Shown here piece after piece: positions 50,891 to 53,415 of a DNA stretch of 64,000 nt. The notes below the pieces were generated by a model. That model did no database searches. It saw nothing but the letters and a program-made list of their open reading frames with translations, and was not told the origin of the DNA. Within the stretch, counting starts at the first letter, position 1; the number at the start of each line of letters is the position of its first letter. The stretch is taken from positions 62,001 through 126,000 of the forward strand of contig JAEPNO010000009.1 of NCBI GenBank assembly GCA_017643365.1. Direction: 5' to 3'. Made by a program: the position numbers and the translations under genes. The DNA is from Balneolaceae bacterium. GTDB taxonomy: Bacteria; Bacteroidota; Rhodothermia; Balneolales; Balneolaceae.

Positions 50891-51050
50891 ATCTCCAGTT
50901 TCTAAATACCATCTCGCCAATTTATTTGAACTTACCAAGTGAATACTTTTCATTCCTCAAGCAATATTATTTCAGTTGATTAGGTGCATCATTGGGTTGA
51001 ATCATATACATTTATGATCAATGAAATAGTTCATAAATAATATGTTAGCA
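50891..51050 (+). repeat. Candidate attC-like site 1 (left core degraded)
   Basis: The right end is GTTAGCA (51044-51050), the form of an integron cassette boundary (G^TTRRRY-like). The site aligns base-for-base with site 2 at an offset of 920, including cattcctcaagcaatat, ttcagttgattaggtgcat and atcatatacatttatgat. Its left end lacks the expected AAC core, so the preceding unit may be truncated. Confidence 0.55.
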
Positions 51051-51064
51051 TGCTTGCTCGATAG

Positions 51065-51790
51065 ATGAAAAGAATAACTGCAATATTGTTTCTCACATGT
51101 ATTCTAATTAGTTGTTCTTATGTGTGGGAGGTGCCATTCTCAAATAATTACAACCAATCAATAAAGGTAATTTGGCATCAAGCTGAAGGATATGGACAAC
51201 ATCCAATTGAAAGTGATGTAATTAGGCCCGGTCATACTAAAGAAATTAAAACTTCAGTTTGGAGGACACATACACGATCCAATTTTCAATTTCAGATGTT
51301 TCATGTAGTTAATGAAGAGAATGACACATTAGAGACTGTTTTTTTAAATAGTGGGCTGATAGCATGGTTAGGATATAATGTAGAATTACCTCTAAAAAAC
51401 ATCTCTAGTGAGCCACATAAGAGGTATGATAGTTTTTTGAAATATTGCAATAAAGACTCACTCAGTATTAATGTAGTAGAGTTATTCGTTGATTTTACAA
51501 ATGAGGAGTATGACAAAGTATTGAAACGATCCGATCTTTTATTGAATGAATACAGAGCTCCAACAAATGAAGTAAAAGAGGAATTTAAAAATTTAGCTGA
51601 AGATATAGACTCTGCAAATATTCAAGCCGTTATGCTTCTTCAAGTTCTGGCTTCAGAAAAACAAGGTTCTAAAAGCATTGCTAAAAGTGTGACTAATTTG
51701 AAACGTGTTTATCCAGAGGTATTTGAACACTATAGTAATTGGAATCCGTTCAATAAAATCTTCGAATCCGTTGCTATTGCAGATTCTTAG
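51065..51790 (+). CDS. Hypothetical lipoprotein, cassette gene 1
   Basis: I do not recognise the 241-residue product. It has a lipoprotein signal (ILFLTCILISC, Cys17) and an N-terminal part with beta character (VPFSNNYNQSIKVIWHQAEG, then SNFQFQMFHVVNEENDTLE). The C-terminal half is helical and charged. A+T content is visibly higher than in flanking housekeeping genes. It starts 15 bases after the GTTAGCA of site 1 and ends 12 bases before the complementary left end of site 2, the tight packing expected of a cassette. Confidence 0.65.
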   Translation: MKRITAILFLTCILISCSYVWEVPFSNNYNQSIKVIWHQAEGYGQHPIESDVIRPGHTKEIKTSVWRTHTRSNFQFQMFHVVNEENDTLETVFLNSGLIAWLGYNVELPLKNISSEPHKRYDSFLKYCNKDSLSINVVELFVDFTNEEYDKVLKRSDLLLNEYRAPTNEVKEEFKNLAEDIDSANIQAVMLLQVLASEKQGSKSIAKSVTNLKRVYPEVFEHYSNWNPFNKIFESVAIADS

Positions 51791-51802
51791 TAAACTAACT
51801 TC

Positions 51803-51970
51803 GCATGCTAACAAGCAGTTTCCAAATCCAATCCAGCCGATTTATTTGAATGTTCATTGTGAGTTTTATTCATTCCTCAAGCAATATCATTTCAGTTGAT
51901 TAGGTGCATTATTGGGATGAATCATATACATTTATGATCGATGAAATAGTTCATAATTAATATGTTAGCA
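51803..51970 (+). repeat. Candidate attC-like site 2
   Basis: 168 bases bounded by gcatgctaac and gttagca, which are complementary at their cores. The left end continues aagcagtttcca, almost the same as site 3 (aagcgtttcca). Interior pairing is modest, with an ATCATA/TATGAT hairpin near 51922. The ungapped similarity to site 1 covers 160 bases. Confidence 0.6.
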
Positions 51971-51988
51971 GTACAGAAAATCTAAAAT

Positions 51989-52642
51989 ATGACTGAATTC
52001 ACTATAATTCTTGTCGCAATTTGGGCCTATCCAATTCTTGGGTTTCTACTTTTCCAATTTACTAAACCTAATGAGGTTATCAGAAATAGAATTATAGGCA
52101 CAATAACTGTAATCTCCTTCACTGCAATCATTGGTTATTTAGTTAATGTCTCTACAACATCAACAGAATTAGACTGGCTATTCTTTACAATTCCATATCT
52201 ACTAATTTCAATTTTACTTTGGAGGGCATTTTATCATAATACAAAAGCAATCAAATCTTTGGCAGTATTCGGAATGGCTTTAATTTTTGGCTTAGGGTAT
52301 TTCTCAGGTTCTTTAGGAATTTTAGGTATTGGGCTGGGGATTGGAGATTATCAAACAGATGCAGAAACTTGGTATGACACTGGGTTTATTTACAAAGAAA
52401 CTTCTCTTGGAAATGCCCTTGCAGATTATCGTGGGAAAAGAGTTGAAATAAGTAAAACCATTCCTTGGTTACCCATAATTGAATGGGAAGTAAAAACGAA
52501 AGAATATTTTGGAAGAGCCGTTTATAAAAATAGACTTGAAGTTGAATTCGATAGCGACAAAAAAGAATTTTATTTAAGTACAATTGACCAATTCAAAGAT
52601 TCTACTAAGTTTTGGGCAGACACTTTAAAAATAGAACATTAA
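51989..52642 (+). CDS. Hypothetical four-helix membrane protein, cassette gene 2
   Basis: I do not recognise the 217-residue product. The first 120 residues hold four membrane segments (IILVAIWAYPILGFLLFQF, IIGTITVISFTAIIGYLV, LFFTIPYLLISILLWRAFY, VFGMALIFGLGYFSGSLGIL). The remaining 95 residues are soluble and include WYDTGFIYKETSLGNALADY. It starts 19 bases after the GTTAGCA of site 2 and ends 14 bases before gtactgctaa of site 3. Confidence 0.62.
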   Translation: MTEFTIILVAIWAYPILGFLLFQFTKPNEVIRNRIIGTITVISFTAIIGYLVNVSTTSTELDWLFFTIPYLLISILLWRAFYHNTKAIKSLAVFGMALIFGLGYFSGSLGILGIGLGIGDYQTDAETWYDTGFIYKETSLGNALADYRGKRVEISKTIPWLPIIEWEVKTKEYFGRAVYKNRLEVEFDSDKKEFYLSTIDQFKDSTKFWADTLKIEH

Positions 52643-52656
52643 CTAAATCCATATCC

Positions 52657-52801
52657 GTACTGCTAAGAAGCGTTTCCACATGGGGATCTTCGACAAGCGG
52701 ACGCGAGTAGGGTTCTCACTTCGGCTTGTAGCCAAGAAAAATATTCAGTTACTTCAACAAAAACCGAGAACCTGCGCCGCTGAAACGCAGGGTCGTTATA
52801 C
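52657..52801 (+). repeat. Candidate attC-like site 3, nested imperfect palindrome
   Basis: A 145-base site with three nested pairs of arms: gcgtttc (52670-52676) with gaaacgc (52782-52788), agcgg (52696-52700) with ccgct (52777-52781), and ggttctc (52711-52717) with gagaacc (52766-52772). The left core tgctaag has G where AAC would have C. The right core is gttatac (52795-52801), five bases from the next start codon. This is the best-folded of the three sites and looks most like a canonical attC. Confidence 0.65.
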
Positions 52802-52805
52802 ACTT

Positions 52806-53303
52806 ATGATTAAAATCGTAATTGCTTCTGAAAAATACCCCATTGACAATATTCTAATTCACATTCGGGTATTTTTAAAAAAGGGAAACAGTTATGGAAA
52901 TATTTCAAATTTGAAAACTGATGAGTATGGTTCGATTATTTTGACCAAGAAATTAATTGAAGAGAATTTAGTATCTGCAGATATCAAAAATATAACAGGT
53001 TTTGGCCTCTCATTTCTTAATCTCAAAACTATTGAACAGCTTAAACAAACTTATAAGCGGTATGAAACAATAGATATTTCCGAAATTGAGGCTGAACTTG
53101 GTAAAAAGGGATTTAAAGAAAGTAAATTAAAAACCATCGCGAGAAATACTTTATCAGAATTAAGAAAACAATCAGAGATGTATTCATTTTATGAAGCAAG
53201 TAATAATCACTTGGTACCTAGTTTAGATTTTGAAAATGAGTTCAAATTTGATTTTACTACGTCAAAAATAATATTAAACCTAGAAAGTGTATTATATCTT
53301 TAA
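52806..53303 (+). CDS. Hypothetical protein, cassette gene 3
   Basis: I do not recognise the 165-residue product. It has no signal or membrane segment. The N-terminal 90 residues (IKIVIASEKYPIDNILIHI, VFLKKGNSYGNISNLKTDEYG) look like a beta-sandwich of the kind found in Ig-like or transthyretin-like folds, with a helical segment after it. The frame runs upstream to 52680 through the palindromic site, but the ATG at 52806, just after gttatac, is the cassette-like start. The end of the gene contains aagtgtatta (53285-53294), a near-complement of the opening gttatacactt. Confidence 0.6.
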   Translation: MIKIVIASEKYPIDNILIHIRVFLKKGNSYGNISNLKTDEYGSIILTKKLIEENLVSADIKNITGFGLSFLNLKTIEQLKQTYKRYETIDISEIEAELGKKGFKESKLKTIARNTLSELRKQSEMYSFYEASNNHLVPSLDFENEFKFDFTTSKIILNLESVLYL

Positions 53304-53415
53304 ATAGGACAATGTCAAGGGCACATAGTTTCCCCACCGTAGTTAATCTCGTTCCGAACGAGCCATTCGGAATACTTATAAAACCACCAGTTCATTTGTT
53401 GTTGTGCTTCTGTTT

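Follow-up and report, generated by a model that had tools for sequence, protein, structure and literature searches.

Organization of the cassette array

The window analyzed here is a 64-kb stretch of DNA (positions 62001-126000 of contig C51) from a Balneolaceae genome (G000, the source genome) of 3.77 Mb in 51 contigs that is 99.8% complete. This genome contains an integron gene-cassette array and lacks an integrase gene. The array in the window holds three ORFs, all on the + strand, which start 4 to 18 bases beyond cores at 51044 (GTTAGCA), 51964 (GTTAGCA) and 52795 (GTTATAC). Read 5' to 3' on the + strand, its order is attI-like site A, cassette 1, attI-like site B replacing an attC, cassette 2, an attC (site C), cassette 3 and a degenerate closing site (site D):

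50896-51044, + strand: site A, attI-like by similarity to attI adjoining intI; crossover G^TT at 51044
51044-51816, + strand: body of cassette 1; opening GTTAGCATGC, ORF, closing R'' GCATGCTAAC (51803-51812) and AAGC
51065-51790, + strand: ORF of cassette 1, 241 aa; by eye a lipoprotein-like start (LISC)
51816-51964, + strand: site B, attI-like, in the attC place of cassette 1; crossover at 51964
51989-52642, + strand: ORF of cassette 2, 217 aa; N-terminal half hydrophobic (by eye)
52657-52801, + strand: site C, attC of cassette 2; R'' GTACTGCTAAG, L'' GCGTTT, L' AAACGC, R' GTTATAC; extra stretch after L''
52806-53303, + strand: ORF of cassette 3, 165 aa
53285-53345, + strand: site D, predicted closing end of cassette 3; R'' AAGTGTATTAT (degenerate) precedes ATCTTTAAATAGGACAATGTCAAGGGCACATAGTTTCCCC..GTTA

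The initial annotation had described integron cassettes with unrecognized genes and no integrase in a Balneolota-like host, and this description is borne out, as are its three same-strand genes following GTT cores and the pairing of the two ends of a unit. The ends of cassette 1, GTTAGCATGC and GCATGCTAAC, are complementary at 10 of 10 positions, which was equalled by none of 300 permuted openings (p=0.003), and those of cassette 2, GTTAGCAGTAC and GTACTGCTAAG, at 10 of 11 (p=0.05 in the same anchored permutation test). Pairing of opening and closing ends is as high as 12/12 in the cassettes of relatives. The third unit, which the initial annotation had left open, is closed at 53285-53292, where AAGTGTAT pairs with ATACACTT in the opening (by eye, the core being degenerate). 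Comparison of the cassette proteins with Pfam, PADLOC, PHROGs and viral contigs gave no useful match and no family assignment; a single weak Pfam match of the cassette 1 ORF (E 0.02) fell below the cut-off and was disregarded. An Rfam scan of the window gave no match.

Site D is a putative conserved second type of cassette end. The same element also closes cassettes on contigs C18, C20 and C50 of the source genome and at loci in G091, Gracilimonas and Balneola. Near-identical copies of the closing element, TAACATCTTTAAAAAGGACAATGTCAAGGGCACATAGTTTCCCCACCGTAGATGTTACG, lie at 53296-53345 in the window, at L027:5770-5849 and L237:1787, and in L069, L077 and L107, spanning Balneolaceae genera. The outer ends of this element, TAACATC and GATGTTA, are inverted repeats, and L''/L' are not obvious in it.

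A family of attC sites in the Balneolaceae

Site C is an attC. To build an attC covariance model we chose 17 of 99 complete sites, all 17 from genomes other than the source genome, and cmsearch with this model returned a single match in the window, at 52661-52801 (65.2 bits, E 1.4e-15), and none other in the 64 kb. Both the covariance match and the further sites in the genome that the integron reading of the initial annotation foresaw were found: the source genome has at least 10 attC at the level of the covariance model, and the right-end pattern TTAAACGCNGGGTCGTTA occurs at 12 sites with at most one mismatch, the next matches having three mismatches, which is the chance level. The family structure has 93% of cells paired, with R''-L''/L'-R' pairing and an extrahelical base, and the 99 complete sites share one form, YYTAAC-AA-GCGTTT(c)AAG-CGG ... 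CCGCTTAAACGC-NGGGTC-GTTRNN (with some variation), corresponding to R''-L''-L'-R'. When a single genome from each of 84,980 species was scanned, the right-end pattern was present in 81 stretches, mostly in records of Balneola, Gracilimonas, Fodinibius and other Balneolaceae or Rhodothermia, frequently as dense arrays. These stretches supplied the 99 complete sites.

The initial annotation had treated the three long sites as being of one kind. This does not hold, as its first two sites are an attI-like direct repeat and the third alone is an attC. The shared left end tgctaa(c/g)aagc(a)gtttcca that it had noted is a true R''-L'' in the third site, whereas in the second it is made up of the R'' of cassette 1 and the left end of the attI copy. 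Its description of the array as CALIN-like is supported in that attC cassettes occur without intI. The strict rule asks for two or more attC in a 4-kb span and no intI, and the window locus has one attC at model level. Contigs C18, C33 and C50 of the source genome carry two attC each within 4 kb, as the rule specifies.

Several variants of these sites and arrays were seen in passing. An attC on contig C49 of the source genome (L028:64-157) contains a 27-bp tandem unit, AAGCGTTTCCCCATGGGGATCTTCGAC, and site C has a similar extra stretch after L''. A 4-kb contig binned as Spirochaetaceae (L066, JAQQAK010000242.1) carries four attC of the Balneolaceae type, reflecting either transfer or misbinning. 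In a Balneola genome without intI above the cut-off (G003), attC sites extend over ~17 kb (C17:62668-79469).

Sites A and B are attI-like

Site A lies 606 bp downstream of a gluconate-dehydrogenase-like gene. Sites A and B form a direct repeat of 155 nt that is 86% identical. Both align with the intI-proximal attI of two relatives, G027 and G001, which occupies the stretch from intI to the first cassette. Across 92 family genomes the best matches to A and B terminate at cassette junctions, and one of them is the interval that separates intI from its first cassette in G027 (C3:449524; intI at 449750). The attI adjoining the G001 intI has the same end as the A/B type, GTTCATCAATACTATG^TTA, and the G027 and G001 intI, both of which have A/B-type attI, are sisters in the integrase tree (support 99/97). 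At sites A and B a predicted G^TT junction joins the attI-like site to its first cassette. From similarity and position, then, A and B are best described as attI-like. We considered and rejected an assignment of A and B as attC, there being no covariance match to either and none at B even at E<=10. A fixed GTT left boundary for such copies, which A, B, L184 and L186 seemed to display, was also discarded, since other copies extend further upstream.

With A and B read as attI-like, cassette 1 would be an attI-ORF-attI unit, a cassette of the delta-attI type. Its R'' GCATGCTAAC-AAGC runs into attI-like site B, so that an attI segment stands in place of the attC after the ORF. Such units are rare in class 1 integrons because IntI1 excises them at ~100% (PMC12901181). 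They have been proposed to originate when attI L recombines with attC R'' in an uncommon crossover (PMC12901181, with reference to Partridge 2000), and the joining of R''-AAGC to attI at 51812-51816 matches this proposal.

Cassette mobility and integrase loss

A homologue of cassette 2 with 85% identity is present in another genome, MAG 7_bin.32 (locus L130), and the homology runs from TATG^TTAGCAGTAC to GGGTCGTTA of the closing attC. The upstream sequence and the next cassette both differ between the two loci. Gain or loss of units at exact G^TT junctions, anticipated by the initial annotation, is thus seen for cassette 2 as a whole unit between unrelated neighbors, in a comparison of genomes rather than strains. 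No intI lies within the 8-kb L130 locus; the MAG has an intI elsewhere.

The initial annotation's question of an intI elsewhere in the genome received a divided answer. Profile searches of the source genome gave no TIGR02249 match above the cut-off, and the genome has no IntI and no intI beside attI. Among the 92 family genomes IntI is found in 50, and several carry two or three intI. Genomes of this family share identical attI/intI stretches with named Balneola and Gracilimonas records, which identifies the family as Balneolaceae. The best integrase candidates of the source genome are XerC, XerD and a 280-aa protein on contig C44.

A relative of the same genus, G001, encodes a bona fide IntI (418.8 bits) divergent from its array. 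The order repeat-protein gene, VOC gene, array at this native locus is common to G001 and to contig C18 of the source genome. Contig C18 has orthologues of the genes that adjoin intI in G001, followed by attC-bounded cassettes, and because it keeps these but neither intI nor attI, intI appears to have been lost from the native locus in the lineage of the source genome. In this draft assembly an intI within an unassembled repeat is conceivable despite the 99.8% completeness and the read-through of the native locus on the VOC-gene side. Contig C49 of the source genome starts with a gene similar to the one found at the far end of the array in G001. Sites of the attC family are retained in four of the six intI-less genomes searched (the source genome, G003, G013 and G040).

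The source genome contains toxin-antitoxin cassettes. Cassettes or cassette-like units on contigs C18 (L027:3100-5849) and C7 (L029:150-2100), where the end of C18 and the start of C7 look contiguous, carry UPF0175/DUF3368, HigB/HTH, Phd-YefM/ParE and Unstab_antitox/ParE pairs, and a protein with an FRG domain. In G001 the first cassette after attI (contig C11, L061:15062-18200) spans 3.07 kb and holds zorA2, zorB2 and zorE2 between an opening GTTATGTTTC and a closing GAAACATAAC, so that one cassette carries a complete Zorya type II defence system.

Satellite attI copies in related genomes

Copies of A/B-type attI far from intI, which we call satellite attI, occur in G027, G024, G032, G091, G018, G028 and G001 as well as in the source genome. 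The G027 satellite is 95% identical to the attI borne by its own intI. Downstream of several satellites there are attC sites in the same orientation (G027 C14, G024 C9 and C7, G032 C8, G003 C2), the first of them within ~0.25 to 1.4 kb. Three Gracilimonas genomes share one orthologous satellite locus, in which the upstream sequences are 71-72% identical over 1-1.3 kb and the first cassettes are three different ones; at another such locus, in two Balneola genomes, the upstream sequences are 92% identical over 1.2 kb and there is no similarity past the junction.

In the sister species G001, the orthologue of the window locus has an attI copy (C9:1-64) ~290 bp after the orthologue of the gluconate-dehydrogenase-like gene, and because of this copy the attI platform in the window is older than the split between the source species and G001. 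A further G001 copy, on C26, adjoins an M23 peptidase gene; in the source genome 75 bp separate the M23 peptidase gene from an M28 peptidase gene downstream, and this interval contains no attI. Both G001 copies sit at contig ends, and the comparison of C26 with the source genome is tentative. Several genomes with satellite attI of the A/B type have an intI of their own that adjoins an attI of another type, and because of this difference in type, cognate activity in trans is uncertain in these genomes. What appears to be new here, judging from the open-access literature, is that attI copies distant from intI occupy conserved positions and have their own arrays in several species, with differing cassettes at the same attI.

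Origin of the array

We interpret the array (probability roughly 0.85) as integron cassettes stranded in an intI-less chromosome and docked at a satellite attI, most likely by insertion in trans. In an ancestor, an IntI encoded elsewhere on the chromosome would have inserted circular cassettes at the G^TT of the satellite attI; cassette 1 probably arose by fusion of the R'' end of its attC with attI; and intI would have been lost later in the source lineage. We infer the recombination in trans, the order of these events and the manner in which the attI copies spread. The survival of cassette 1 fits the loss of intI, because in class 1 integrons an active IntI removes nearly all attI-ORF-attI units. 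More broadly, the Balneolaceae could possess multi-platform integrons in which one IntI serves scattered attI in trans and actively builds integrase-less arrays, the attI copies themselves spreading, for example as delta-attI-type cassettes like cassette 1. We advance this wider proposal tentatively, at somewhat short of even odds.

Ordinary decay, in which every satellite attI and the array behind it are what is left of a whole integron copy after deletion of its intI and nothing took place in trans, has a real if minority chance of being correct. It accounts for single satellite copies with intI-leader-like sequence, and draws on such sequence kept upstream of attI at L191, L198 and L196 and at the G001 C9 and C26 copies, on the multiple intI of several family genomes, and on the loss of the native intI in the source genome itself. 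Nevertheless, tblastn over the ~1.5 kb that precedes the satellite copies detected no intI remnant, the tandem arrangement of A, cassette 1 and B requires more than deletion of intI, and the differing first cassettes at orthologous copies point to turnover after the attI had settled, although such turnover could predate a local loss of intI. Off-target insertion at random GTT (attG-type) sites, with A and B as chance repeats, is improbable. IntI1 does use attG sites (PMC12901181), and off-target insertion is one possible source of CALINs (PMC8618304), but attG sites reportedly diverge strongly from the classical att sites (PMC12901181), while A and B are attI-like along their length and the G027 satellites are up to 95% identical to an intI-borne attI. 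We consider it equally improbable that the cassettes were moved by another tyrosine recombinase, such as XerC/XerD or the C44 protein. The latter is nearest to IntI among the recombinases of the genome that were compared and scores 203 bits against the integron integrase model, but this is below the cut-off, and we rejected it as the cassette integrase since the IntI-specific region is missing and no such sites adjoin its gene in the stretch searched; furthermore, relatives combine the same attC type with a true IntI at the head of the array.

Relation to known integron systems

Integrons are known in Bacteroidota (PMC8618304, PMC9668308). CALINs are common, and integrase-less cassette clusters are reported to be commoner than complete integrons, with several origins proposed (PMC9668308, PMC8618304). 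Those proposed for CALINs are off-target insertion, loss of intI and rearrangement; a separate attI platform is not among them (PMC8618304). Within open-access text, most subscription journals being outside this scope, we found nothing on point about integrons of Balneolota/Rhodothermaeota or about extra or satellite attI sites. The orthologous satellite attI with different cassettes suggest a concrete route to integrase-less arrays, namely building in trans followed by loss of intI, such that these arrays may be built at spare attI sites rather than merely left behind. The Balneolaceae also offer an integron system outside the Proteobacteria in which the attC family can be recognized, together with an attI-ORF-attI unit that occurs naturally on a chromosome.

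Sedentary chromosomal integrons of the Vibrio type resemble the Balneolaceae system in their IntI and attI, in arrays whose small genes point away from intI, in having one homogeneous attC family per lineage and in carrying toxin-antitoxin cassettes, to which the Zorya type II defence cassette of G001 may be added as a further likeness. The Balneolaceae differ from them in host, in having small arrays scattered over several loci and in the extra attI away from intI. With CALINs the window array shares attC-bounded cassettes in a genome without intI, but it differs in starting at an attI-like site. Cassette 1 is closest to the delta-attI-type cassettes of class 1 and 2 integrons, such as attI1-aacA4-attI1 (PMC12901181), in which an attI segment likewise replaces the attC after the ORF and attI lies on both sides; it is distinguished from these by its chromosomal location, its ~150 bp attI, the lack of an integrase and its occurrence in another phylum.
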